From NCBI RefSeq assembly GCF_007859865.1, contig NZ_SJPI01000001.1, forward strand, positions 1,984,001-2,048,000: a stretch of 64,000 nt of DNA. The letters are read 5' to 3'. The notes under the pieces were generated by a model. It was not told the origin of the DNA. It worked only from the letters and a program-made list of their open reading frames with translations, and made no database searches. The position numbers and the translations under genes were made by a program. Source of the DNA: Rubripirellula amarantea (lineage in GTDB: Bacteria > Planctomycetota > Planctomycetia > Pirellulales > Pirellulaceae). The number at the start of each line of letters is the position of its first letter. The first letter of the stretch is position 1. Shown here one piece after another: positions 2,132 to 22,257 of this stretch.

Positions 2132-2299
2132 CCGGCGTGGGTTTCTGGCTCGATCGCTGTCAAAATTGGTTGCCCAGATGACTGCAGGCACCTTCGCTGA
2201 TCGAGATATTTTCGCTATTCTGCTTAGCAATTTGCCCTTGGTTCGCCAAAACTTCATCTGGTGTGCCCCCCCATTCACTCATTGTTGGATCGAAAGCCA

Positions 2300-5200
2300 G
2301 TGCCCGCGCGCGACGACATCAAGAAAATCATGATCATTGGCAGCGGACCGATTGTGATCGGCCAAGCTTGCGAATTTGATTACTCGGGAACCCAGGCCTG
2401 CAAAGCACTCCGCGAGGAAGGCTATGAAGTAGTGCTGGTCAACAGTAATCCCGCGACCATCATGACCGATCCAGCAACCGCCGATGCAACGTACATTGAG
2501 CCGTTGAATTGGCAGATGCTCGAAAAGATCATCGCTAAGGAAAAGCCATGTGCATTGCTTCCTACGCTGGGAGGGCAAACTGCTCTCAACGCGGCGATGG
2601 ATTTGGAAGCCAATGGCATTTTGAAAAAGTACAACGTCGAATTGATTGGTGCTGACACCCGCGTGATCGCCAAAGCGGAAGAACGCGACCAATTCAAAGA
2701 AGCGATGGAAAAAATCGGTCTCGATGTCTGCAAGGGCTACACGGTCCACACTCTCGAAGAAGCTCGTGCAGCACTCAAGGAAGTCGGACTTCCCGCCGTT
2801 GTTCGTCCAAGCTTCACGATGGGCGGCAGTGGTAGCGCGATCGCATACAACAAGGACGAGTTTGACACCTTGACTCAGCAAGGGCTTGATCAATCGCCGG
2901 TTACCGAAGTCTTGATCGAAGAATCCATCATTGGATGGAAAGAATACGAGATGGAAGTGATGCGAGACAAAGATGACAACGTCGTCATCATTTGCAGTAT
3001 CGAAAACTTTGACGCAATGGGCGTGCACACCGGTGACTCGATCACGGTGGCACCCGCGCAAACTCTGACCGACAAAGAATACCAGCGCATGCGAGATGCC
3101 TCGCAAGCAGTCATTCGAGAAATCGGTGTCGAGACAGGTGGTAGCAATATTCAGTTTGCGATCGAACCCGACACGGGACGGATGATCGTGATCGAGATGA
3201 ACCCCCGAGTCAGTCGCAGTAGTGCCTTGGCCAGCAAAGCGACGGGTTTCCCGATCGCTAAGATCGCCGCCAAGCTTGCCGTTGGATATCGCTTGTGGGA
3301 ATTGCCAAACGATATTACTCAAAAGACGAAGGCCTGCTTCGAACCAACGATCGACTACGTGGTTACGAAGATTCCTCGCTTTGCCTTCGAAAAGTTTCCT
3401 GAAGCCGATGCAACGTTGACCACGCAAATGAAGAGCGTTGGTGAAACGATGGCCATTGGTCGTTCGTTTCGCGAGTCGTTTCAAAAAGCGATGCGTGGAC
3501 TCGAAGTCGGCGCTTTCGGGTTTGGCAGTGACAATCGAGACTTGTGGGGCACGCCGGACCAGCCGGACCAAGACGAAATCATCGCAAAGCTCAGCACGCC
3601 CACCGCAGAGCGAGTGTTCTACATTCGCTACGCCATGAAAGCGGGAATGTCGATCGAAGAGATCCATTCCTACACTAACATCGACGTTTGGTTCTTAGAC
3701 CATCTGATTCAGTTGATCGAGCAAGAAAATCGCTTGATCGAACTTGGCTCTCTGGACGCTATCGATGCTGAAACGATGCGAGAAGTGAAGCGTGATGGAT
3801 TTGCCGATCGCCAACTAGCGACGATCTTCGGAACCACCGAAACAAAGGTTCGCGCCAAGCGTCACGCCCTCGGTGTGAAGCCGGTGTTCAAGAGTGTTGA
3901 TACTTGTGCTGCGGAATTTGAAGCGTATACGCCGTACTACTACAGCACCTATGAAGAAGAAACGGAATTGCCACCAAAGGCAGGTCAAAAGCGAATCATG
4001 ATTCTGGGAGGCGGTCCGAACCGGATTGGTCAGGGGATCGAGTTTGACTACTGCTGTTGTCACGCCAGCTTTGCGCTGCGTGAACTCGGCATTGAGTCCA
4101 TCATGGTTAATAGCAATCCCGAAACGGTTAGCACGGACTATGACACTTCGGACATTTTGTTCTTTGAGCCACTAACGATCGAGGACGTTCTGAATATCTG
4201 CGATGCGGTCCAGCCCGACGGGGTGATCGTGCAGTTTGGTGGCCAAACTCCTCTGAATCTCGCTCGCGGACTGCAACAGGCTGGTGTGCCGATCATTGGA
4301 ACAAGCGTCGAAACAATCGAGGCTGCGGAAGATCGCGAGTTGTTCCAAAAGCTGATCGACGAACTTGGTCTAAGTCAGCCGCCGAGCGGCATCGCTCGAA
4401 ACATGGACGAAGCTCGCATTGCTGGTAAGGTCATTGGCTTCCCAATGTTGGTTCGCCCCAGCTTTGTTTTGGGAGGGCGAGCGATGGAGATTTGTTACGA
4501 CCAACCGCAATTTGAACGCTACGTCGCGGAAGCGTTTGTCGTGGCCGATGGGCAACCCGTTCTTATTGACCGCTTCTTGGAAGATGCCACCGAGGTCGAT
4601 GTTGATGCCGTTTCCGATGGTACGGATTGCGTGATCATGGGCATCATGGAACACATCGAAGAAGCTGGCGTTCACTCGGGCGACTCGGCTTGCGCGATTC
4701 CGCCTTACAGTTTGACTCAGCCGATTTTGGAAGAGATTCGTGCGGCGACAAAGAAGCTCGCAAAACGCCTCAATGTTATCGGTTTGATGAACATCCAGTT
4801 CGCAATCAAGAAAGATGGCGAAGATCACTCCGTCTATATTCTCGAGGTCAATCCGCGAGCATCACGGACGGCGCCGTTCGTCGCGAAGGCCACAGGCGTG
4901 CCGGTGGCATCCATCGCTACTAAGGTAATGACGGGAATGACGTTGGCAGAGTTGGGAGTGACCAAAGAAGTCATTCCATCGCACGTGTCGATCAAAGAAA
5001 GCGTATTCCCGTTCCGCAAATTTAGCGGCGTCGACATTGTGCTTGGGCCTGAAATGCGAAGCACCGGCGAAGTGATGGGCATCAGTGATAGTTTCGCGAT
5101 CGCGTTTGCCAAGAGTCAGCTTGCCGCTGGGACTGTTCTTCCCACGGAAGGAAAAATCTTCATTAGCTTGTCTTCGCGACACAAAGAACCTGCAATCGCG

Positions 5201-5554
5201 ATCGGTCGAGAGCTGCGGGAAATGGGGTTTGAGATCTTGGCAACTTCCGGGACTGCCAGCCGGCTTAGCGAAGGCGGTGTCGAAGTGACCCGCGTGAAGA
5301 AGCTTGCCGAAGGGCATCCTAACCTGATTGATTACCTTAAGAACGAAGATGTTCAGTTGATCATCAATACCCCGAGCGGTAAGGGTGCTCGAACCGATGA
5401 AGGGCGAATCCGCGCTGCAGCAGTGCAAGCGGGCGTTCCCTGCATTACAACCATTGCGGCCGCAGAGGCTGCCGTGCGAGCGATGCACGCAACGCGTGAA
5501 TCGCCTATGGAGGTCGTGTCGCTTCAGGATCGCTACGCCGCAGTCAAAAGCTGA
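2300..5554 (+). CDS. carB: Carbamoyl-phosphate synthase large subunit
   Basis: CarB makes carbamoyl phosphate from bicarbonate, ATP and ammonia for arginine and pyrimidine synthesis. The protein has the full duplicated architecture of about 1080 residues: a first ATP-grasp half opening with [18 protein letters not shown], a second half opening with [24 protein letters not shown]-grasp loops such as [12 protein letters not shown] and [12 protein letters not shown], and a C-terminal MGS-like allosteric domain ([12 protein letters not shown] onward). The frame is open back to a GTG at 2261, but I prefer the GTG at 2300, which gives MPARDDIKK, the usual CarB N-terminus; a TTG at 2282 is also possible. 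carA is not in the window. The NtrC-type regulator gene follows 9 bases after the stop codon, so co-transcription is likely. Confidence 0.96.
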
Positions 5555-5563
5555 TTCCGTTTC

Positions 5564-7009
5564 ATGGCTACCGAATCCAATCAACCCGACGAAGGTACGT
5601 TTGACCCAGCCAGCTTAAAGTTGTTGGTGGTCGACAATGAAGCGGCGCATGCGCGAGCGATGACGGAATCGCTCGAGAAAGTAGGTTACGTTTGCGAAGT
5701 GGCCACGAGTGGTCCCGAAGCTGCGGGCATGATTCAGCGTGAGACCTACGACATCATCATCACGGACATGGTGATGAACGATGTCGATGGAATGAAGATC
5801 TTGGATCTTGCCAAAGAAAAGTTGCCCGGCGTTGAGGTCGTGATGGTTACCGGCCATGCCACGGTGCCCGTTGCCGTGGAAGCCATGCAAAAAGGTGCAT
5901 TCAACTTTCTCGAAAAGCCAATCACGCCCAATCGCTTGCGGGCGATCGCCGAAAAGGCTGCCGAGGCTGTATCACTGAAAAAACGCAACACTGAATTGTT
6001 GCAAAGACTCGACGAGCGATTTGGTTTTGAAGGGATTATCTACACCAGCAAGAAGATGCAGGATGTGGTTGATCGGGTGCGCCGAATCGCGGCTACCGAC
6101 GCGACTGTCTTGATCACCGGTGAAAATGGTACGGGTAAAGAGGTTATCGCCCAAGCGATTCATCAGAACAGCCCTCGACGCAGCAAACGCATGGTGGCGA
6201 TGAACACCGGCGCCATCGCAGAGAATTTGGTCGAAAGCGAGCTGTTTGGACACGTCAAGGGTTCGTTCACCGACGCGGTGTCTGATCGCGAAGGCGCGTT
6301 TCAATACGCCAACGGCGGCACGTTGTTTCTAGATGAAGTCGGTGACATGCCGATGAGTACGCAAATCAAGCTGCTGCGAGTGCTAGAGGAGAACAAAATC
6401 ACTCGCGTGGGCGAGAACAAAGAAATCAAAGTCAACGTGCGGATGATCTCGGCAACCAATCGCCCACTCGAAGATTTGATTGACGCAGGGACGTTTCGGC
6501 GAGACCTCTATCATCGCTTGAAAGTTGTCACAATCGAATTGCCCGCACTTCGTGATCGCCGAGAAGACGTGGTCCCCTTAATGGATCACTTTCGTAAACA
6601 ATTCTTGCGGCGTTATGACAAGCCGAACGCTCATTTCACACCCGCAACGACCAAGCGTTTTTTCGCTTACGATTGGCCGGGTAACGTTCGTCAATTGCGT
6701 AACTTTGTCGAAACGATGGTGGTGCTCGACACGGACGGTTCGCTTGATATCGATGATCTGCCGCCTGAACTTGTCGACCAGAACGATCACGTTGAAACGG
6801 ACGATTCGAATGCGATGCCGGTTGCGGCAATTGGGGGTGGTTCAGAGTCGGCTTTGATCGGTCGGCCCCTCAGCGAGATCGAACGTTGGGCCATCGAAGA
6901 AACTCTTAAGATGACAAACGACAACCGAGAGAAAGCGGCTGAGATTCTCGAGATTGGCGCGAGGACGCTCTATCGCCGTCTCGACCAATACAAAAAAGAC
7001 GAAGAATGA
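5564..7009 (+). CDS. NtrC-family response regulator with degenerate GAFTGA loop
   Basis: The 481-residue protein has three parts: a receiver domain (about 18-130, phosphoacceptor D68 in ITDMVM), an AAA+ sigma-54 activation domain (about 155-385, Walker A GENGTGKE at 186-193, Walker B FLDEVGDMP) and a C-terminal Fis-type helix-turn-helix (KAAEILEIGARTLYRRL). The loop that contacts sigma-54, normally GAFTGA, reads GSFTDA at 233-238. A glycine-to-aspartate change at the fifth position is expected to weaken or abolish sigma-54 contact, so it may act as an ATPase-bearing regulator without sigma-54, or with altered specificity. It sits 9 bases downstream of carB with no kinase gene beside it, so it is an orphan regulator. 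Confidence 0.9.
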   Translation: MATESNQPDEGTFDPASLKLLVVDNEAAHARAMTESLEKVGYVCEVATSGPEAAGMIQRETYDIIITDMVMNDVDGMKILDLAKEKLPGVEVVMVTGHATVPVAVEAMQKGAFNFLEKPITPNRLRAIAEKAAEAVSLKKRNTELLQRLDERFGFEGIIYTSKKMQDVVDRVRRIAATDATVLITGENGTGKEVIAQAIHQNSPRRSKRMVAMNTGAIAENLVESELFGHVKGSFTDAVSDREGAFQYANGGTLFLDEVGDMPMSTQIKLLRVLEENKITRVGENKEIKVNVRMISATNRPLEDLIDAGTFRRDLYHRLKVVTIELPALRDRREDVVPLMDHFRKQFLRRYDKPNAHFTPATTKRFFAYDWPGNVRQLRNFVETMVVLDTDGSLDIDDLPPELVDQNDHVETDDSNAMPVAAIGGGSESALIGRPLSEIERWAIEETLKMTNDNREKAAEILEIGARTLYRRLDQYKKDEE

Positions 7010-7111: not shown

Positions 7112-7660
7112 ATGTCAGACCGAATCATTATGCGAACGGGCGAAGCACTCGTCGCTGGCGGACCACCCTTTACGGCGGCCGAACCTGAGGTTGTGATTGG
7201 CGAACTTGACGGTCCCGTGGGGATCGCGTTGGCGACACTAACGGGCGACCAAACGAAGGGGCACTCAAAGGTGTTCGCGATTTTGAACACGGACGTCCAG
7301 GTTCGCCCCGTCACATTATGCGTCAGCAAGGTGACCGTCAAAGACAACCGTTACACAAACATTTTGATGGGTACGGTTCAAGCCGCGATCGCAAACGGAG
7401 TATTGGATGCTGTTCGAGCAGGCGATCTACCGAAGGATCGGGTCAATGAGCTCGGGATTATCTGTAGCGTTTGGCTCAATCCAGGTGTCGCGACCGACAA
7501 CAATCTAGACCATAAGGCACTGTTTGATATTCACCGCGAAGCGATGGCCAAGGCCATTCATAAAGCGATGAACAACGAACCGTCGATTGATTGGTTGCTA
7601 GAGAACCAAGACAAAATTACGCACAAGTACTACCAGATGGGGCTCGACGGGAAGATCTAA
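7112..7660 (+). CDS. Formaldehyde-activating enzyme (Fae) homologue, apparently lacking the catalytic histidine
   Basis: Fae condenses formaldehyde with tetrahydromethanopterin in C1 oxidation. The 182-residue protein opens with RTGEALVAGG, matching the GEALVGDG start of Fae, and keeps the later blocks: KPxTL-like RPVTLCVSKVTVKDNR, the helix GTVQAAIANGVLDAV and the end HREAMAKAIHKAMNNEPS. Where classical Fae has AHIDLIIG, this protein has AEPEVVIG, so the histidine proposed as general acid/base is a glutamate. There is also a two-residue insert after the GG. It therefore resembles the divergent Fae2/Fae3-type homologues more than the characterised enzyme. No other H4MPT pathway gene is in the window. 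Start ATG at 7112. It is convergent with the dihydrouridine synthase. Confidence 0.85.
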   Translation: MSDRIIMRTGEALVAGGPPFTAAEPEVVIGELDGPVGIALATLTGDQTKGHSKVFAILNTDVQVRPVTLCVSKVTVKDNRYTNILMGTVQAAIANGVLDAVRAGDLPKDRVNELGIICSVWLNPGVATDNNLDHKALFDIHREAMAKAIHKAMNNEPSIDWLLENQDKITHKYYQMGLDGKI

Positions 7661-11281: not shown

Positions 11282-12640
11282 TCAGTGCAAACTGTACCGA
11301 TTCATTTTGTAGTGCAGTGTTCGCACGCTAATGCCGAGAGCACTGGCGGTTTGTTCGCGATGAAAATCGTGAGCCGCCAACGCCGATTGAATCGCAATTT
11401 TTTCCGCGTCCTCAGTCACCTCACTGAGTGGTCTGATCTGAGATGAATTCGTTGACGCAACGGCGATCAATTCGGAAGGCAGGTCCGCAGCAGTGATCGT
11501 GTCGCCACTTACCGTCACTACCAAACGCTCAACCACATTTCGTAGTTGGCGAATGTTGCCTGGCCAACTGGCGTGAATCAACGTTTGCATGGCTTCTTCG
11601 TCAAATGTCTTATCGCCGCGTCGGTGTCGATTGATAAAGTGCGATAGGAAGTGGTCGGCCAACAATGGAATGTCCTCTCGACGTTGTCGAAGCGGAGGGA
11701 CTTCGATGGGGACAATGTTAAGACGGTAGAATAGGTCTTCCCGAAACGTGCCTTCTTGCACGAGGGTGGGCATGTCGCGGTTGGTTGCCGAAATGATCCG
11801 AGCATCAGAATGCAGAATCTCCTCGCCGCCCACTCGAGTGAACTGACCGGTTTCTAAAACTCGCAATAAATCAACTTGGCTCTTGGCGGGGATCTCCGTG
11901 ATTTCATCGAGCAGCAGCGTGCCTCGCATCGCCTGTTCAAAGCAGCCTGGTTTCTGTCGCATAGCACCGGTGAATGCGCCTTCTTCGTGGCCAAACAGTT
12001 CGCTTTCCAGCAGTGTCTCTGGCAATGCGCCCAAGTTGACGGCGACGAAGGGGCCGCTCGAACGGTTCCCTAGATCATGAATCGCCCTGGCGATAAGTTC
12101 TTTTCCCGTCCCACTTTCACCCTGGATCAAAACGGTCGCGTCGGTATCGGCAACTTGCCGGATTTGGCCAAGCACTTCCTGCAAGGCTCGGCAACTTCCC
12201 ACAATCCGGGAGACCTCGCCCGCCTTGGCGAGTTGGTCCTTTAGCAACCGATTCTCCGTTTGCAATCGATGGTGCTCAATCGCCTTGCTGACTTGTTGGC
12301 GAATCAAGGTCAGGTCGACGGGCTTAGTGATGAAATCAAACGCTCCTCGCCGCATCGCTTCCACCGCTGTCTCAACAGTGCCATGCGCGGTGATCACGAT
12401 CGCGGTAGTGCCCGGACGACGTTCCTGCACCAACGATACAAATTCCAACCCGTCACGATCACCCGGCAAACGAACATCCACGATGACGAGTTGATAAAGA
12501 TCTGCGTCAAACTTATCAAGCGCTTCGTTGACGCTTCCCGCCGTTTCGATCCGGTCAGCGATCTTTTGCAGTCCCTTCGCGAGGCCCGAACGAATGTTGG
12601 GTTCGTCGTCGACGATCAGAATTTGAAATGGGTCTTCCAT
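11282..12640 (-). CDS. NtrC-family sigma-54-dependent response regulator, likely activator of the dab operon
   Basis: The 452-residue protein has a receiver domain with phosphoacceptor D55 (IVDVRLPG), an AAA+ domain with Walker A GESGTGKE near 174-181, an intact sigma-54 contact loop GAFTGA at 221-226, Walker B LLLDEITEIP, and a C-terminal Fis-type helix-turn-helix (QTASALGISVRTLHYKMNRY). It is therefore a competent sigma-54 activator, in contrast to the regulator beside carB. It starts 5 bases after the stop of the histidine kinase gene and is its obvious partner. Across the gap lies dabA, preceded by a -24/-12 promoter and two palindromes, which makes the dab operon its most likely target. 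That assignment is inference from position. Confidence 0.93.
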   Translation of the reverse strand: MEDPFQILIVDDEPNIRSGLAKGLQKIADRIETAGSVNEALDKFDADLYQLVIVDVRLPGDRDGLEFVSLVQERRPGTTAIVITAHGTVETAVEAMRRGAFDFITKPVDLTLIRQQVSKAIEHHRLQTENRLLKDQLAKAGEVSRIVGSCRALQEVLGQIRQVADTDATVLIQGESGTGKELIARAIHDLGNRSSGPFVAVNLGALPETLLESELFGHEEGAFTGAMRQKPGCFEQAMRGTLLLDEITEIPAKSQVDLLRVLETGQFTRVGGEEILHSDARIISATNRDMPTLVQEGTFREDLFYRLNIVPIEVPPLRQRREDIPLLADHFLSHFINRHRRGDKTFDEEAMQTLIHASWPGNIRQLRNVVERLVVTVSGDTITAADLPSELIAVASTNSSQIRPLSEVTEDAEKIAIQSALAAHDFHREQTASALGISVRTLHYKMNRYSLH

Positions 12641-12645
12641 GCGAA

Positions 12646-14010
12646 CTAAATTTTCGAGTTGAACGGGGACGCGATCGGTAAAGTTATTTCAAAGGTAGTG
12701 CCAGCCGGTGAGGTGTGAAATTCTATGCCACCGTTGTGCTGCCGCATGATCTTGTCGCTTAGGGCTAACCCTAGGCCAGTGCCTTCACTTTTCGTGGTGA
12801 AATAGGGATCGAAGATGCAGTCCTTTAGGTCATCAGGAATTCCGGGGCCCTCGTCCGTGATCGTGACCGTGAACGACTCGGCATTGATGATCGTGTCCAC
12901 AACGACACGGCCGCCGTTGGGCATTGCTTGAATCGCATTGTTGAGCAGGTTAAAGAATACTTGTTCTATTCGCGGACGATCGACACGTACCTTAGCTATT
13001 GAGTCGAGAGAAGTCTTATCGATGAGCACGACATTGGATTGTTTGGCTTTGGGAGTCAGTAGCTGAACTTGATGCACGATCAGGTCACCCAGATTGGCCC
13101 ATTCAGGATTCAGTTCGCCAAGAGAAGCGAAGTCGCGGAACCCTTCTAGCACGGTTCCCACACGTTGCACTTCGGTTGTGATAACCGACAACATTTGATC
13201 GACATCTTCACTGACATGGTTTTCGTTGAGGTGTTCTTCCAGCAATTGAACATGTAGCGACAGGGCCGCTAAAGGATTCTTGATTTCATGGTGCAGCCCG
13301 ACTGCAAGTGAGCCCAAGCCCATGTATCGTTCCATCCTTCGCATGCGCTCTTTGACGAGCACTTGTTGGGTGACGTCGCGAAGTTGCAGTACGTTTCCAA
13401 TATCCTTGCCCTCGAAATCAGTCAGCGTTTGGCAAGAGCCTTGCAATGTGCGTTCTGTACCGTTGTCGGTGAGGGTGAATTCTTGAAAGTGATCAGAAGA
13501 TGGCTTTGATCGACCCTTCATTCGAAAGCCGTTGAGTTGCAGTTTATCTGAAAGGCTTTCCAGTGGCACACCAACGCATTGCCTGCTGGCGCCAAGCAAT
13601 TCGATACCTCGGCGATTGATGCTGGTTACTTTGCCATGGGGATCCGTCGTTAGGACCGCTTGGTCGATGCTGCTAAGGATATCGCCCGAGAGAGCTTTGA
13701 CGTCTCGCAGTGATTGTTGCGAGGCACGATAGGCGCTTGAAAGTAAAAGGATCGCCAATCCTGCGACGACAAGATTAAGCACGACCAGAATCGTAATACG
13801 GAACTGCCAGCGTAATTCACCGGCCAATTCTTCGGCAGATTCGGCTGCATCGCTCGGCAGTCGCTTGATCAATTCCTGAACGATCTTCTGCTCGCGTAGG
13901 AAATCAACCTCCACCCAGACCGTAACGGCGATCGCAGCAACGCTAAGTGCCAATAGAGCCGAGATTGCTAGTCGATAGTTCTTGCCTGTTTCTGGTTGAA
14001 AACGAAACAA
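12646..14010 (-). CDS. NtrB-like membrane sensor histidine kinase
   Basis: The 454-residue kinase has two transmembrane helices (about 14-32 and 72-92) enclosing only about 40 extracytoplasmic residues, a PAS-like domain (about 105-215), a HisKA domain with LHHEIKNPL (phosphoacceptor H241) and a HATPase domain with N box NLLNNAIQAM, G1 DEGPGIP and G2 GTGLGLAL. The tiny outer loop suggests that the signal is sensed in the membrane or by the cytoplasmic PAS domain. It is the first gene of a two-gene unit with the sigma-54 response regulator. Its start codon is 38 bases from the nearer palindrome of the shared intergenic region, so autoregulation is possible. Confidence 0.93.
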   Translation of the reverse strand: MFRFQPETGKNYRLAISALLALSVAAIAVTVWVEVDFLREQKIVQELIKRLPSDAAESAEELAGELRWQFRITILVVLNLVVAGLAILLLSSAYRASQQSLRDVKALSGDILSSIDQAVLTTDPHGKVTSINRRGIELLGASRQCVGVPLESLSDKLQLNGFRMKGRSKPSSDHFQEFTLTDNGTERTLQGSCQTLTDFEGKDIGNVLQLRDVTQQVLVKERMRRMERYMGLGSLAVGLHHEIKNPLAALSLHVQLLEEHLNENHVSEDVDQMLSVITTEVQRVGTVLEGFRDFASLGELNPEWANLGDLIVHQVQLLTPKAKQSNVVLIDKTSLDSIAKVRVDRPRIEQVFFNLLNNAIQAMPNGGRVVVDTIINAESFTVTITDEGPGIPDDLKDCIFDPYFTTKSEGTGLGLALSDKIMRQHNGGIEFHTSPAGTTFEITLPIASPFNSKI

Positions 14011-14182: not shown

Positions 14183-14198
14183 GGGCATGGCGATTGCC
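14183..14198 (+). promoter_or_regulatory. Sigma-54 (-24/-12) promoter of the dab operon
   Basis: The 16 bases GGGCATGGCGATTGCC match the consensus TGGCACGrNNNTTGCW at 13 positions. They include the essential GG (14184-14185) and GC (14196-14197) with the required 10-base spacing, and the full TTGC block. Transcription would start near 14208-14209, leaving a leader of about 47 bases before dabA. The divergent regulator has an intact GAFTGA loop, which supports the call. Confidence 0.78.
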
Positions 14199-14255: not shown

Positions 14256-17200
14256 TTGCCCGTAATAGAACAGTCGAAAGATTCGCATGTTGGTGGAACC
14301 TCACAAACAGACCTGTACGAAGCGATTCGCGGCGCAGTCGATCACGCTGCTCATCTGCTACCCGCGCAGGGGCCCATCACGGTATTCGTTCACCACAATA
14401 CTCTTCACGCCTTTGAGCACTTAAATTTTGATGCGGGTGTCCAGGCCGGCGGGCGGTTGTTCAATTGCCATGCCTATCTGCCCGAAGATCGCTATCAGGC
14501 AGAATTAGCTCGAGGTCGAATACGCGTCGAAGACTTGGATGCCGTGTTGCAAGAAGACCTCGGCGACGAGGCGGATCGGTTGGTAGCGACGTTTGGAACT
14601 CGCTATGCATTGCGATTGGCAATGATGCAGTTCCCACTGCATTCGGGTCCACCGCACGAATTGCGATGGGTGGTTGCGGAAACTGATGCGTTGCGGAAAT
14701 TTCGGCAGGAAGTCGATCCTGTCATGCGGGAGAACTTGATCACGCAAACTCGCAAGTGGTGCTTGGACTTGCTGGATGGAGCGCCAGGCAATTCCAGTGA
14801 AATTCAACGCGAACTGGTTTGTGATCTTGAACGTTACGATGCCCATTCGTGGGAACTTTCGAAGTGGGAACCGTTCACGCTCAAATTTCTATGGCGAGTT
14901 TGCTGTGCTGGAGTGACAACGATCACCAATGACGATGGTGGGGCCGTCATACCGAGTTCACCACGCCGGCATCGTGACATACTTCTCGATCAAGTCGGTG
15001 AAGACTCGGATCAAAATGTTCATGATGTGTTGATCCGATACTGTTCAATGTTTCTTGATCAAGGGTTCGCCGATTGGGATGAACTACCAAGAGACATCGG
15101 GTTCTACGACGCCTTTTTGCATTTGTATTGTCAGCGACTGGCCGCACCCACGCGCTGGATGTCCTCTCTACAGACAGAATGTCGGCGACTGAAATCGCAA
15201 AACGTCGGGCCGCTTGATTCCATCGCCCAGTCGCTCGTGGCGCTTGGCGTGGACGCTGAAGAATACGAGTCCTATATCACTCACTCGCTACTGGCGCTTC
15301 GAGGGTGGGCCGGAATGGTTTGGCAGATGGAAACCAATGCGGACTGGGCACCGCGGCCAGCGGCGAAAGGCAGTTTGGTTGAATTCTTGGCGATTCGTCT
15401 ATTGCTAGACCGACTTTCGATAACGCAGGTGGTTCGCGATTCGCTTGACGATGCGATACCACTCGACCAAGTGCGTCAGCGGATCGATACCGGATTAGCG
15501 TTCAGCCAAAAAGATCGAGTTGAACAACGAGCGTTTAACGTTTTTCAGCTCGCTCAGGTACGTGGATGGTTGCCGAGAAACTTGCAAAGTCTGACTCGTG
15601 AGCAGTGGCGGACCCTAGTCAGTGAAATTGAAGCCTTTGGAAGTTTGGACCGAAGACGTATCTACCATCGCGCTTACGAACGCAAGTATCGTAATGAAAC
15701 GCTCGACGCCATCATTTCGCACGGTGAACATACGATTGACCCGCTACCCGAGCCGAAGTTCGTGCTTGTTACCTGCATCGATGATCGAGAGGAGTCGTTC
15801 CGCCGCCACGTTGAAGAAGTGGAACCGAACTGTGAAACGGTGGGCATCGCCGGGTTCTACGGTACAGCGATGTACTATCGCGGCGCAGAGGACGCTCACT
15901 TTAAGCCGCTGTGCCCGGTTTCGATCAAGCCGAAACACTATGTGATCGAAGAACCCTTGTATTCGTTGTCGGAAGTAGAGCGACGGCGATCGCAAACACG
16001 CAAACGAATCGGCGCGATCACTCATCGAACGCACTTGGGGACGCGTTCACTGCTGGGCGGGCTGGTGACCACGTTGGCTGGCTCTCTTGCTGCGTTTCCC
16101 TTGGTAGGTCGGATTCTATTTCCACGCACGGTTGCTCGGTTGCGGTCTCGCTTGCACGGTATCATCGAACCGCCAAGTACCCAATTAAGATACGAACGGC
16201 TGGACCCTGATCCTGGCAGCCAGAACGGGAAGTTGGGTTTTTCAGTCGATGAAATGGCATCGATTGTTGAGAACACGCTGCGATCCGCCGGGATGACTCA
16301 TCGTTGGTCGAAATTGATTGTGTTTCTTGGCCATGGTTCGACCAGTCTGAACAATCCCCATGAGTCGGCTTACAACTGTGGTGCTTGCGCCGGTAGTCGT
16401 GGTGGCCCTAATGCGCGAGCGTTTGCCTTGATGGCGAATGATCATCGCGTTCGCAATCGCCTTGTCGATCGAGGGTTGAGCATTCCGGATGACACTTGGT
16501 TCGTGGGTGGCTATCACGACACAACGAATGATTCAGTCACCTTCGCAGATCTAGATCGTTTACCGGTTTCGCACCGTGCAAAGTTTGAATCGCTGGTTGA
16601 AGTTATCGACGAGGCTCGGCAACGCAATGCTCACGAGCGGTGTCGACGATTCGAATCGGCTCCCTTGGACATTTCCTTCAAAGATGCTTTAGAGCATGTT
16701 GAAGATCGACCCGAGGATTTGTCGCAAGCCCGTCCGGAGTACAACCACGCGACGAATTCATTGTGCTTGGTGGGGCGTCGGTCTTGGAGTCGCGGTTTGT
16801 TCTTAGATCGTCGCTCGTTCCTGACATCCTATGATCCTTCGCAAGACGACGAGCAAGGCTCGATTTTAGAGGGCATTCTACGAGCGGCCATTCCCGTGTG
16901 TGCGGGCATTAGCCTTGAATATTATTTCTCAACGGTTGATGTGGAAGGCTACGGATGTGGATCGAAGTTGCCTCACAACATCACTTCGCTGCTCGGCGTG
17001 ATGTCGGGATCGGCCAGTGATTTGCGTCCCGGACTATCAGCTCAGATGGTTGAGATTCACGAGCCGATGCGAATCCTTTTTGTCATTGAAACCACTCAAG
17101 AGATTATGAATCGGATCGTTGCCAATAACCCCGCCATCAAACAATTGATCCAAGGGGGATGGGTGCAACTAGCGATTCTCAACAGCGAAACATCACACAT

Positions 17201-17369
17201 CCATCGATACGTCCGCGGGGAATTCGTCGTTTACGCCCCACACACCAGGGAAATTCCAGTCGTCGGCACTTCCATAAATTGGTACCGAAATCACCGCGAT
17301 CATTTGGGGTTCGCAACGGTCGAGGCTTCACTTCATCCAACGATCAAAACTGAGGACGGACGCTCATGA
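14256..17369 (+). CDS. dabA: Inorganic carbon accumulation subunit DabA (DUF2309/UPF0753)
   Basis: DabA is the soluble, beta-carbonic-anhydrase-like zinc subunit of the DAB complexes, thought to hydrate CO2 one way using an ion gradient. The 1037-residue protein carries [11 protein letters not shown] near residues 48-58 and the predicted zinc site: C507 and D509 in [14 protein letters not shown]693 in FLGHGS and C708 in YNCGACAG. The C-x-D pattern and the 15-residue gap between His and Cys match the ligands described for Halothiobacillus DabA (C351, D353, H524, C539), as I recall them. The start is a TTG at 14256; I find no better in-frame codon. Its stop overlaps the ATG of the next gene by 4 bases, so translation is coupled. 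It is preceded by a sigma-54 promoter. Confidence 0.93.
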
Positions 17370-18757
17370 ATATTGATGCTTGGTTCTACGCCCTAGGGTT
17401 GCTGGTCGTCGTGTGTCCGACAGTTTTGTTGGCTGTGTTCGGAATCGCGCCACTTTTTGATCTGCGACTAAGCGAGCGCGTCGTTGCCCGGTTCACCGAG
17501 ATTTCGGTGATCACAGGTCTAACCGCATCCCTTGCCATTTTGGTCTTGATGTTGGTTACGGGAAGACGCGATGTGCCCATCGAAATTGGCGATTGGGTTG
17601 TGATTCCGCAACAACATTTTCACTTTCATTTGAAGTTCGTATTCGATCGGCTATCGGTTCCGTTTGTAATCCTGTCGTTCGTACTGGTGGGAACAATCGG
17701 CGCTTTTGCTAGCCGTTATTTGCACCGCGAGCGAGGATACCACCGTTTCTTTGTGCTTTACGCCGTGTTCTTGTTGGGCATGGTCGTGTCATCATTGGCT
17801 GGAACCATTGAGACATTGTTCTTCGGGTGGGAGTTCGTGGGACTGTCCTCGGCTTTGTTGGTTGCGTACTTTCACGAACATCGCAATCCAGTTCGCAACG
17901 GGCTTAGTGTTTGGGTGATCTACCGGATCGCGGACGCTGCATTCTTGATCGCGGCGATTACGTTGCACCACTTAACCGGCGGCGGTGATTTTGACGGCTT
18001 GATGGGGACGGGAGCTTGGCCTGAAGGTCACGCTTCCATTTCAAGTTCTCATGCGTTGTTTGTGGGGTTGTTGTTATTAGTTGCGGCAGCGGGCAAGTCC
18101 GCTTTGGTTCCCTTCTCGGGCTGGCTTCCCAGGGCGATGGAAGGGCCAACGCCATCGAGTGCGATTTTCTACGGAGCATTGTCCGTTCACTTAGGTGCTT
18201 TCTTGTTGCTTCGCGTCAGCCCGTTGCTTGAGGCATCGTGGGTGTTGAGTGCTTGTGTCGTCGCGATCGGCGTCGTCTCGGCGATTTTTGGTTCGCTTGC
18301 CGCTCGCGTGCAAACCGACATCAAGAGCGCTCTCGCATTTGCTTCGCTAACTCAGGTCGGCATCATCGTCGCCGAGATCGGACTAGGGTTTCGATACCTT
18401 GCACTGATTCACATCATCGGTCACGCCTGTGTTCGCACGCTGCAATTGTTGCGTGCTCCCACACTTCTGCATGACTATCATTCACTCGAAAATGCGATTG
18501 GCGGCCAGCTATCTCACTCTCCTACGGTTTGGTCCCGCTGGTTGCCGATTGAAGTTCGATTATGGATATATCGAATTTCCATTGAGCGAGGATTCATGGA
18601 CGCTGTTTTGAACGATTACATCGCTCACCCGTTTGTTCTTGTCTTTCGCAAATGCGACTCTTGGGAGCGAGCGTGGACGGATTGGTTGTCAGGCGGGAAA
18701 TCTCGCGAATCTGACGACGTTAAACCAACGCCAAGTTCGTTAGAGGAGTTCATCTAA
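17366..18757 (+). CDS. dabB: DabB-like NuoL/MrpA-family membrane subunit
   Basis: DabB is the ion-conducting membrane partner of DabA and belongs to the proton-pumping NADH dehydrogenase subunit 5 family. The 463-residue protein has about 12-13 hydrophobic helices and keeps the channel residues known from NuoL: the glutamate in [10 protein letters not shown], the lysine in [16 protein letters not shown], and the histidine in [11 protein letters not shown]. The later [16 protein letters not shown] segment corresponds to the helix that normally holds a lysine; here an arginine is found. No other complex I genes are nearby, which supports a Dab role instead of respiration. It overlaps dabA by 4 bases at its start; its stop TAA overlaps the ATG of the following gene by one base. 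Confidence 0.88.
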
Positions 18758-20181
18758 TGGCTGAACTGCATCTGCCTTGGCTCGAATTGTCGGTCCTGAT
18801 TCCGCTTGTCGGAGCGATCGTTGTCGCATGGATGAATGATGCCTCACGCGCCCGCAAGGTGTGCTTGGCCGTTTGCACGTTAACGCTTGCATGTGCGACC
18901 GCCGAGTGGTTTGACTTTGTCAGCTTGGGAACCTTCGAGGCCCACGATCACTGGGACTTTATCGAATGGACCTTTCATGAAGACGTGTTTGTGATTGACG
19001 AGCTAAATTCGCCCCTGATCCCATTGGCGGCATTGCTTTGTTTGCTGACTGCGTTGTCAACGCTGCGGACGAAGGTCAATCGGTTTTCCTTTTCGTCGAT
19101 GTTGACCAGTGAAGCGATCTTGATTGCGACACTGAGTTGCCGTAGCGCGTGGGTCATTGTGGCCTTGTTGATAGCCGCGATTTTTCCGGTGCTGTTGGAA
19201 TTGCGATCGCGTGGTCAATGCACACGGGTATTTGTTGCCCACATGGGACTATTTGCTGTACTGCTGGTACTCGGACAATCGCTCGTTCAACTGGACTTTG
19301 TCGTCACGGGTGGCGGTTTGCTCACGGCTGCAGCGCTTCTTCGCAGCGGAATCGTTCCGTTGCATTGCTGGATGACGGACTTGTTTGAAAAGGCCAGTTT
19401 CGGGACGTCGCTACTCTTTGTGACGCCGATGGTGGGTGCCTACGCGGTCATGCGATTGGTGTTGCCGATAGCGCCGGACTGGGCACTGCAAAGCATCGCA
19501 ATCGTGTCGCTCTTTACGGCCGTATACGCCGGCAGCATGGCACTGGTGCAACGTGAGGCACGCCGGTTTTTCTGCTACCTGTTCCTGAGTCATTCGTCGT
19601 TAGTTTTGGTCGGCCTTGAGATTGCGACGCCCATCGGATTGACGGGAGCGCTTTGCGTGTGGCTTTCCGTAGCCCTGTCGCTGACCGGCTTTGGGTTAAC
19701 GCTTCGCTGTGTTGAAGCAAGAACCGGTCGGCTATCGCTAAGTGGTTTTCATGGTTTATATGAACACATGCCGGCGTTGGGCGTTCTGTTCCTGATCATG
19801 GGACTTGCGTCGATCGGCTTCCCGGGCACCATTGGTTTCATTGGTTCGGAGCTGCTAATCGAAGGCGCGATAGGAGTCTATCCGTCGGTTGGAATGGCAG
19901 TCGTTTTAGCGATGATGCTAAACGGGATCGCTATTTTGAACGCGTACTTTCGAGTGTTCACCGGGCATCGTCATACGGCTTCAATTTCGTTGAGGTCTCG
20001 CGCCTCTGAGCGTCTGACGATCTTGATCTTGGTTGTCTTGGTGATCGGCGGCGGTCTGTTTCCTCAGCCCGGTGTGCAGTCTCGCTTTCATGCCGCCAGC
20101 GCATTGTTGGACCAACGCAGCATTGCTCGGCAGGGCCATCAAACCAGTGAGCCCGTGCTCGCTCATCACGATCAACCCTGA
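18757..20181 (+). CDS. Second NuoM/NuoN-like membrane subunit of the dab operon
   Basis: This 474-residue polytopic protein (about 12-14 helices) belongs to the same antiporter-like superfamily as NuoL/M/N, shown by [21 protein letters not shown], which lines up with the family motif K-x-P-x-x-P-F-H-T-W-L-P-D-A-H. By eye alignment the charged channel residues are altered: the helix-5 glutamate falls on isoleucine ([12 protein letters not shown]), the helix-7 lysine is arginine, and the helix-8 lysine is methionine ([12 protein letters not shown]). It may be a non-pumping or structural partner of the DabB-like protein. Described DAB operons usually have one membrane subunit, so two is unusual. 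Its ATG overlaps the preceding stop by one base. Confidence 0.82.
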
Positions 20182-20250
20182 CTTCTACCTTCTACTCGAT
20201 GGCCGCAGCGTCATCTCGTTCGTACATTTTACCTTTCTCTAGTTAATACG

Positions 20251-22257
20251 ATGAATCAAACAGAAACACCACGCGGAAACCTTGAAGGTTTTAAGCAATA
20301 CTTGAAGTACGACCTTGTGTCCGGCTTTTTAGTATTCTTGATCGCGCTACCTTTGTGTTTGGGTATTTCGCTGGCAAGCGGTTATCCGCCGATCGCTGGT
20401 ATCTTTACCGCGATTGTTGGATCGGTACTGGCGACGCTTATCAGCAATAGCGAGCTGACGATTAAGGGACCCGCCGCCGGATTGATTGTGATTGCCATCG
20501 GTTGCATTGAAGACTTCGGTGGCAACGGGATGACCGGCGGATGGGATTCCGCCGACTTGTATGCCTACAAAGCCGCGCTGGCGGTCGGCGTGGTAGCCGC
20601 AGTAATGCAGATCCTATTTGGATTCTTTCGAGCAGGCATTATTGGTGAGTTTTTTCCGAGCGCGGCCGTGCACGGAATGCTCGCGGCAATCGGGGTCACA
20701 ATCATCGCTAAGCAGGTTCCGGTTGCGCTTGGAGTAACGGGTGCAGGCGGCGAACCACTGGAAATGCTGAAGTCGATCCCGCAGTTTTTTATGGAGGCAA
20801 ATCCGGCGATTGCGGCGATCGGTGTGGTTAGTCTGATGATCATGTTCTTTTGGCCGATGATCGGCAAAAGAATTTCTGTGCTGCGAAAGGTACCATCGCC
20901 GTTGGTCGTATTGTTAGTGGCGATTCCGATGGGGATGGCATTCGATCTTTTGCACTCGCATTCTTATACGTTGGCAAATCATGACTACCAACTTGGCGAA
21001 CAGTACTTAGTCAATATGCCGAAACGCGCATTCGGCATGTTCGACGACATCACGATGCCGGATTTTTCGGTGTTGTCCCAGTTCAAAGCGTGGCGGTGGG
21101 CCGGAATGTTCTTCGTGATTGGAACGTTAGAGTCGCTGTTAAGTGCTAAAGCAATCGACCTGCTTGATCCTTGGAAACGTAAAGCCAACATGGACCGTGA
21201 CATCGTCGCGGTTGGGCTCGCAAACTTGTGCTCGGCAAGTGTGGGCGGCCTCCCCATGATCTCTGAAATCGTGCGTTCCAAAGCGAACATCGACAACGGA
21301 GCGCGAACACGCTTTGCTGATCTTTGGCACGGAATTTTTCTGCTTGCTTGCGTTGCTTTGATTCCAACCGTACTGCACCGCATTCCGCTAGCCGCGTTGG
21401 CAGCAATGCTCGTCTATACTGGTTACCGCTTGGCTCACCCGTCGGAGTTCATTCACGTGTGGCGAATAGGCAAAGAGCAGTTGCTAATTTTCGTTACCAC
21501 ACTCGTGATGGTGTTGGCGACCGACTTGTTGATTGGTGTGGTTGCGGGGATCTTGCTGAAGATGGCCATCCACGTTTCCAACGGTGTCCCGATCACGTCG
21601 TTGTTCAAACCTTACATCGAGGTGGAAGAGGTCGATGAGGTCACGAGTCGAATCGTGGCGCACCAGTCCGCGGTGTTCAGCAATTGGATTCCGTTTCGCC
21701 GCCAGATCGAAGAAATCGGTTTGGTGCAGCGTCGCAACCTCATCATTGACGTTTCTAATACGAGTATAGTCGATCACAGCGTGATGGAAAAACTCGATGA
21801 GATGGAGCGTGACTTTGCCGAAGAGGGGCTTAAGTTTGAGGTCCGCGGATTGGAAACGCTAAAACCGCTTGCCGAGAATCCTCACTCGGCCCGTAAGCGA
21901 TCGTTGTCGATGATGCGGCGAGTTACGATTGTTACCGCTGCTTCGTTAGAGGTCGAGTTAGTTGCGGAGTGCATGAAGTGCGGCGCATCGGGCTACACGG
22001 CAATGGAATGCCATGGCAGCGGTCGCCGTAGCGTTGTGGATGCCACAGCAGAGCGGTTGGAGCTTGTGCGGTTGGAATTCATGGTGCCAACCGATGTGTG
22101 CAACCGAATTCTTGACGTCGTGCGACGCAACTATCTTAATATTCATCCTGTCACCGCCTGCATCGAGACGGTCAGCGTGTTGCGAAGTCAAGACTCTATA
22201 GAAAAAAGCGGTGATCGAGTTCCGGCGAATATCGCTGGAAGTGTGTTAGAGCACTAG
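20251..22257 (+). CDS. SulP-family anion (probably bicarbonate) transporter with STAS and SbtB-like PII domain
   Basis: SulP proteins move sulfate, bicarbonate or other anions, often with sodium. Residues about 20-440 are the SulP transport domain (early helix [22 protein letters not shown], then [14 protein letters not shown] and [23 protein letters not shown]). A STAS domain follows at about 463-543 ([20 protein letters not shown]). The last about 95 residues (about 555-650) resemble cyanobacterial SbtB: a TIVT strand, [17 protein letters not shown], then [22 protein letters not shown] and a closing [10 protein letters not shown] strand. SbtB is the PII-like protein that controls the bicarbonate transporter SbtA. 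The gene follows the second membrane subunit by 69 bases on the same strand, so it probably belongs to the dab operon. Bicarbonate as substrate is inferred from context. Confidence 0.88.

Follow-up and report, generated by a model that had tools for sequence, protein, structure and literature searches.

A conserved DAB-type operon in Rubripirellula amarantea with a possible ion path shared between two antiporter-like subunits

The locus

The stretch of DNA analysed here (the window) comprises 64,000 nucleotides of the Rubripirellula amarantea genome (contig NZ_SJPI01000001.1, positions 1,984,001 to 2,048,000; coordinates below are positions within the window) and contains a four-gene operon coding for a long DabA, two antiporter-like membrane subunits termed B1 and B2, and a SulP transporter. 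An earlier sequence-only reading had placed these genes at 14256-22257, and all four open reading frames were recovered there on the plus strand, with Pfam families that agree. The main point of this follow-up, an altered ion path through the membrane subunits, was absent from that reading. The operon and the sites on which the argument turns are as follows.

14256..17369, plus strand: dabA, long form, 1037 amino acids, TTG start; PF10070 DabA, E 6e-232, model positions 1-747
15966..16163, plus strand: DabA finger helices, residues about 571-636, placed by alignments to the DabA2 finger region
16080-16082, plus strand: codon of G609, at the column of DabA2 Glu444, placed by alignment
17366..18757, plus strand: B1, NuoL-like subunit, 463 amino acids; PF00361 Proton_antipo_M, E 3e-42
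18757..20181, plus strand: B2, NuoM-like subunit, 474 amino acids; PF00361 Proton_antipo_M, E 6e-24
19849-19851, plus strand: B2 acid E365 in transmembrane helix (TM) 12, placed by alignment columns over 91 B2
20251..22257, plus strand: SulP with a STAS-like and a C-terminal SbtB/PII-like domain, 668 amino acids; PF00916 Sulfate_transp, E 2e-57, and PF00543

The dabA and B1 frames overlap by 4 bases and those of B1 and B2 by a single base, after which a gap of 69 bases precedes the SulP gene; both the overlapping starts of the two Proton_antipo_M genes and the size of this gap are as first described.

Relatives and three architectures

Relatives were collected from 392 genomes of the phylum scanned with PF10070, 61 of which have DabA (78 matches, with 54 loci fetched by place), and from 80 named loci out of 573 relatives (72 with planctomycete names, five metagenome-assembled genomes (MAGs) labelled Verrucomicrobia and three called only 'bacterium'). 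Three architectures can be told apart. Class I has one dabB of 503-562 amino acids (848-883 in L032 and L033) upstream of dabA; class II has dabA and then a long dabB, in frames of 625-808 amino acids; class III, as in the window, has a long dabA (mostly about 1000-1100 amino acids) with B1 and B2 behind it. The cut for class III was a DabA profile score above 1000, giving 106 distinct proteins among 134 loci, with identical DabA counted once and near-identical ones kept (e.g. L105/L106); L049 and L166, in which DabA is in pieces, fall below it. Of the 106 loci, 94 yielded a B1 and 91 a B2. The order dabA-B1-B2 recurs across Planctomycetota, at 89 of the 106 distinct long-DabA loci, which bears out the expected synteny; 12 loci end at contig edges and five are apparent exceptions (L042, L113, L114, L125 and L154), among them L042, where overlapping long frames hide B1. 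A DegT-family gene lying downstream was rejected as a part of the system, being present at the window's own locus only (1/106).

A tree of 63 DabA separates all 22 class I proteins (SH-aLRT 100) from classes II and III. On the side of the tree with II and III, neither class forms a single branch in this quick tree (two changes each), and the window DabA groups with that of Rhodopirellula baltica (support 97). Plasmids were considered as a source of long DabA and set aside: of 123 matching records, none aligns over 80% of the query at any one place. The eight plasmid records examined carry short DabA (801-855 amino acids), in seven cases with one dabB upstream, and one of the eight, from a Sphingobium, has no dabB in the stretch covered.

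An intact catalytic set and a finger without its glutamate

DabA is a beta-carbonic-anhydrase-like subunit. Its C507-x-D509 and H693-x14-C708 align with the set C351, D353, R355, H524 and C539 of DabA2 (9rd0; alignment E 2.5e-65), the roles of which are given in section 8 of PMC13144422. C507, D509, R511, H693 and C708 are kept in 106/106 long DabA, which upholds the zinc-ligand pattern proposed from the letters alone; with this set intact and PF00361 partner genes adjoining dabA, the assignment to a DAB-type operon with two membrane subunits stands.

The finger of DabA is altered. The finger residue Glu444 of DAB2 stands in for NuoL Lys399/Asp400, and the substitutions E444A/Q abolish activity (PMC13144422, section 11). 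The Glu444 column is Gly in 106/106 class III DabA, only three of which have an Asp or Glu anywhere in the finger segment (residues 596-625). The finger Glu is present in 20 of the 22 class I DabA.

Ion-path residues of the membrane subunits

At the NuoL ion-path columns B1 carries E156, R187, D190, K244, Y269, K320, H349, H353 and R357, all nine invariant in the 28 B1 compared. In NuoL numbering, and over the full set, E144, R175, D178 and K229 are each found in 94/94 B1, Tyr at 254 in 93/94 and Arg at 342 in 92/94, the remainder being gaps. The protein ends after about TM11: hydropathy gives a mean of 10.3 TM for B1 and 13-15 TM for 11 class I DabB, and the AlphaFold2 model of B1 has about 11 TM with amphipathic helices at the end, its best Foldseek match being NuoL (7p7e_L, E 3.3e-15).

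B2 is a whole NuoM-like protein by hydropathy (mean 13.3 TM), with a different set of residues. Glu at the NuoM Glu144 (TM5) column was found in 0/29 B2 when aligned to E. coli NuoM, R196 stands in place of the TM7 Lys (Arg in 90/91) and R269 in place of the TM8 Lys (Arg in 88/91). The TM12 acid E365 is kept, its column being Glu in 85/91 and Asp in 3/91. At L049 the DabA gene is split over two frames, the adjacent B1 and B2 look intact, and this B2 lacks the TM12 Glu; given these two features, that operon may be decaying.

Comparison with DAB2 and the other classes sets these residues in order. DabB2 has Ile151 at the column of NuoL Glu144, and I151E halves growth, while H260A and K347A impair it (PMC13144422, section 11); judging by spacing and residue type, DabB2 His260 and Lys347 probably correspond to NuoL His254 and Lys342. 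Class I DabB agree with this pattern in 20/20 cases (no Glu at the 144 column, His254 and Lys342), and class II DabB have Glu, Tyr and Arg at the 144, 254 and 342 columns in 12/12. The operon in the window thus lacks the coupling features of the DAB2 type, namely the DabA finger Glu, DabB TM12-15 and the absence of Glu at the NuoL Glu144 column (Glu in B1, 94/94).

Natural fusions of B1 and part of B2

The long DabB of class II (n=12) begin with a B1-like part, in which the match to the hidden Markov model (HMM) ends at position 408-436 of 463. In 11 of the 12 this is followed by a C-terminal domain that resembles B2 from HMM position 187-345 of 484 onwards (domain E 1e-29 to 4e-3). Such a start means that the natural fusion keeps the B2 part with the TM12 acid and omits most of the other half. 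Glu or Asp occupies the E365 column in 11/11 class II DabB that aligned, one of the 12 not aligning at the motif. Four class II C-termini score better with B2 than with NuoL/M/N (65.8 v 10.8, 39.6 v 16.8, 42.7 v 5.9 and 31.2 v 2.7 bits), and the C-termini of 11 class I DabB gave no B2 match (best E 0.098).

Two further arrangements were seen among the fused or long forms. L032 and L033 have a DabA of about 1096 amino acids with the finger Glu, preceded by the DabB of 848-883 amino acids, whose C-terminus holds a second antiporter-like region that is closer to NuoM. At L075, L076 and L077, in three genomes of family f46, a pair of class II DAB operons is arranged back to back and divergently.

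The SulP transporter and its PII-like domain

Two domains follow the membrane part of SulP.

21568..21870, plus strand: STAS-like region, about residues 440-540, aligned to 5da0 and 9iar up to residues 535-537
21907..22194, plus strand: SbtB/PII-like domain fused to SulP, about residues 553-648; Pfam P-II, E 3e-10 at residues 555-646

The SbtB-like domain named by the sequence-only reading is found both by Pfam and by profile; its STAS domain is seen by alignment to SulP/SLC26 chains, Pfam STAS not being among the hits. A profile of eight SulP-fused PII-like domains matches 2cz4, an uncharacterised Thermus protein, best (E 9e-20), followed by SbtB 6mm2 (E 3e-8) and PII 1hwu (E 3e-4), and by these scores SbtB, not classical PII, is the nearer of the two. 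The R-loop motif CGPxGC of SbtB (review PMC13249358) is absent from the translated C-terminus of SulP. A fused regulator would be sensible here, since SbtB is reported to bind BicA (same review).

At its ion site the transporter is not BicA-like: the columns of BicA Asp258 and Thr262 are E294 and S298, and those of Gly300-Ala301-Thr302 are S338-E339-I340 (residue roles from PMC13249358), with E294 and E339 invariant in 41/41 linked SulP. Bicarbonate nevertheless stays plausible as the substrate, because the window SulP is closer to a SulP-beta-carbonic anhydrase fusion of the same genome (36% over 424 amino acids) than to another SulP there (29% over 98). This fusion is a 759-amino-acid frame at G000:C3:333439-335613 (L178). 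Another paralogue in the genome, 62% identical to the window SulP, is followed by a CitMHS-family gene.

SulP is not obligatory to the DAB operon. It adjoins 45 of the 89 complete dabA-B1-B2 loci, 24 with both flanks covered have none, and 20 have too little flank. It lies downstream in 34/89 (22 with PII; a contig end truncates two of the 34) and upstream in 11/89 (two with PII, one of these divergent), and 25 of the 41 strongly matching SulP proteins carry the PII domain; the cut for SulP was low, the downstream SulP of L043, L111, L129 and L141, counted without PII, scoring only 124-132 bits. The idea that one operon pairs CO2 hydration with bicarbonate import thus stands as regards the DAB-type operon; its SulP half is loosened by this variable presence and by the BicA-like residues that are not kept.

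A proposed shared ion path and its alternatives

The TM5 Glu of NuoL is close to TM12 of NuoM in complex I. If B1 and B2 sit side by side in the manner of NuoL and NuoM, the C-terminal half of B2 (E365) would admit protons from outside; these would move sideways to Glu156 of B1 and pass on to the cytoplasm through Lys244, Lys320, His349 and His353 of B1. This movement would drive DabA as proposed for DAB2, with the acid supplied by B2 instead of by the DabA finger, so that B2 would act as a half-channel donor and not as a second full pump. The membrane complex probably traps CO2 as bicarbonate, which, together with any imported by SulP, would feed ordinary carboxylases in a heterotroph. We infer that B1 and B2 may share one proton path replacing the DabA finger route. 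Taken whole, the proposal that the operon encodes a DAB-type, ion-gradient-driven CO2-hydrating complex with such a shared path, along with a SulP with an SbtB-like sensor, has in our judgement about an even chance of being right. Somewhat more tentatively, and at a little under an even chance, we suggest that there are two mechanistic DAB classes, and that in the second a single proton path would be built from the N-half of one antiporter-like unit and the C-half of another, in two proteins or fused, so that a complex-I-type interface and not a finger of the catalytic subunit would drive CO2 hydration.

Several observations weigh against this proposal. The finger Glu is not universal even within class I, since L063 and L064 have 'FVGPVG' in place of the finger Glu motif and otherwise keep class I DabB residues. 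Residue changes do not by themselves prove coupling, and they mark one deep split in the DabA tree, so that few independent events lie behind them; Lys to Arg is moreover a mild change. L113 and L114 (Schlesneria MAGs) have a long dabA with neither B1 nor B2 within 10 kb downstream. As for the fusions, one class II DabB of the 12 (L076:9904) gave no C-terminal B2 match, and several show weak B2 similarity in the B1-like part too, as expected of paralogues. The comparison of C-termini drew on 91 B2 and 6 Nuo proteins, and a fifth C-terminus, that of the long class I DabB of L033, slightly prefers NuoM there (49.4 v 45.4 bits for B2). Each of the two AlphaFold2 models is of a single chain (predicted local distance difference test, pLDDT, 78 and 76); the finger of the DabA model is helical and mostly below pLDDT 50, and Foldseek with that model found no fold match at E <= 0.001 in a library in which DAB2 entries do not show. 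Finally, a separate beta-carbonic anhydrase in the genome could drain the bicarbonate pool if expressed simultaneously.

B1 and B2 might instead each carry ions, at least two per CO2, as COGNAT 2017 suggested for multi-subunit operons by tying the number of membrane subunits to the number of ions (PMC5700660). The full length of B2 fits such a double pump, as does its conserved acid E148 (Glu in 79/91, Asp in 7/91), which lies nine residues past the NuoM Glu144 column, also counts against a shared path and means that the N-half of B2 is not simply 'dead' or stripped of acids. The missing TM5 Glu, the Arg at the TM7 and TM8 Lys columns and fused class II forms that match B2 only from HMM position 187 on nonetheless make two pumps an unlikely arrangement. 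We think it somewhat less probable still that the complex is sodium-linked, with B2 structural or sodium-carrying. That has been argued for MpsAB, which is read as Na+-linked in section 11 of PMC13144422, and mpsABC complements an E. coli deficient in Na+/H+ antiporters (PMC6689103); against it, B1 keeps the Glu/Lys/His columns of NuoL. The loss of a Glu essential in DAB2 would also suit a long-DabA complex that is weakened, or reversed into a CO2-releasing ion pump, and the COGNAT authors did propose an ion-exporting reaction (PMC5700660). With the catalytic set kept in 106/106 and B1 strongly conserved, this strikes us as very improbable.

The most serious of the alternatives concerns SulP alone, which may move an anion other than bicarbonate and stand in the operon for pH or charge balance. 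The replaced BicA site residues, the invariance of E294 and E339, and the CitMHS-family gene behind the 62% identical paralogue all point that way. On the other side are the association of SulP with about half of the complete operons, its kinship to the carbonic anhydrase fusion and the SbtB-like domain that it carries, and we hold the other-anion account to be a real though minority prospect, at roughly one chance in three.

Regulation and genomic context

Upstream of dabA lie a candidate promoter element and two divergent regulatory genes.

14183..14198, plus strand: sigma-54-like element GGGCATGgcgaTTGCC, 57 bases before the dabA start, scoring 13/16
12646..14010, minus strand: histidine kinase with a PAS domain, divergent from dabA; HisKA, HATPase_c, PAS_4
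11282..12640, minus strand: NtrC-type sigma-54-activating response regulator, adjoining the kinase; Response_reg, Sigma54_activat E 2e-67, HTH_8

Sites were scored out of 16 points against a sigma-54 consensus. The window's own site is weak alone, because 9/100 shuffles of the region score as well, and it was rejected as proof of a promoter. Across the relatives, sites scoring at least 14/16 occur upstream of dabA at 23/102 loci, on the reverse strand at 5/102 and inside dabA in 31/1020 stretches. Close relatives of the kinase/regulator pair lie within 1.6 kb upstream of dabA at 14/106 loci (46 loci without the pair have at least 4.5 kb covered, and 46 others have less flank), and the sites are found at 9/14 loci with the pair vs 14/88 without (Fisher p 3e-4, with kinship ignored). 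Where members of the clade possess this divergent pair, it would set expression of the operon through a sigma-54 promoter. Another NtrC-type response regulator gene lies at 5564-7009 of the window, followed by a gene for a formaldehyde-activating enzyme (Fae) at 7112-7660.

The genome has one DabA, and three more PF00361 proteins in adjacent frames that resemble NuoL/M/N. It gave no match to the RubisCO large subunit, which fits an organism outside the Calvin cycle and agrees with the view that it is probably not autotrophic. There are two beta-carbonic anhydrase matches, one of them the SulP fusion, and five SulP matches in four proteins. CarB is encoded at 2261-5554, as first noted. The suggestion that the operon supplies CarB with bicarbonate fared poorly and was dropped: 2/106 long-DabA loci have a carB relative in the flanks fetched for them, flanks that are not uniform, and the window's own carB is outside the stretch used.

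Comparison with known systems

The layout is not new, as the sequence-only reading had supposed it to be, since COGNAT 2017 (PMC5700660) reported it: in its clade C, ybcC/DUF2309 precedes nuoL, and COG1008 (NuoM) and COG0659 (sulfate permease) are neighbours. This is the same gene content, and by layout the window operon belongs there; the parts of that account consulted go without a function, ion-path residues, truncation, fusion logic or the PII fusion. Sections 4, 8, 11, 12 and 24 of PMC13144422 do not contain the class III residue pattern, and no account of that pattern or of a split ion path was found in the literature searched on layout, mechanism and fusion, a scope that leaves out Desmarais 2019 and Mangiapia 2017. 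This is a real and conserved DAB operon whose layout had been noticed; its proposed split ion path is, within these searches, apparently undescribed.

DAB1 of Halothiobacillus neapolitanus (PMC4633670; PMC13144422, section 4) comprises a NuoL-like protein, a small TM protein, a 1046-amino-acid DUF2309 protein and a PII/SbtB homologue; like the window operon, it exceeds two genes and has a PII/SbtB homologue close by. It differs in having DUF2309 downstream of nuoL, a small TM protein as its third part and PII encoded by a gene of its own. With BicA and SbtB, as described in PMC13249358, the SulP fold is shared; here the SbtB-like domain is fused, the BicA ion-site residues are not kept and CGPxGC is missing. 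B1 and B2 recall the NuoL-NuoM pair of respiratory complex I, being NuoL-like and NuoM-like respectively, but B1 ends after about TM11, the ion-path residues of B2 differ and the operon has no redox genes.

DAB2 of H. neapolitanus (DabA2-DabB2, PDB 9rd0; PMC13144422), the only relative found for which a structure has been solved, shares the DabA catalytic set, a NuoL-like partner, the DabA finger region and the Lys/His columns of B1. In the account given there it has one dabB of 15 TM, an essential finger Glu444 and no NuoM-like subunit, and its DabB2 carries Ile151, His260 and Lys347 where B1 has Glu, Tyr and Arg, the last two being matched by spacing. The 2026 DAB2 structure paper (PMC13144422) regards the DabA finger Glu and its setting as a likely critical point for coupling. 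In nature a large clade lacks that Glu, has a second subunit and comes in both split and fused versions, so that coupling can be put to a direct test. The clade also bears on why heterotrophs retain machinery for trapping CO2, and it supplies further parts for the engineering of bicarbonate provision.

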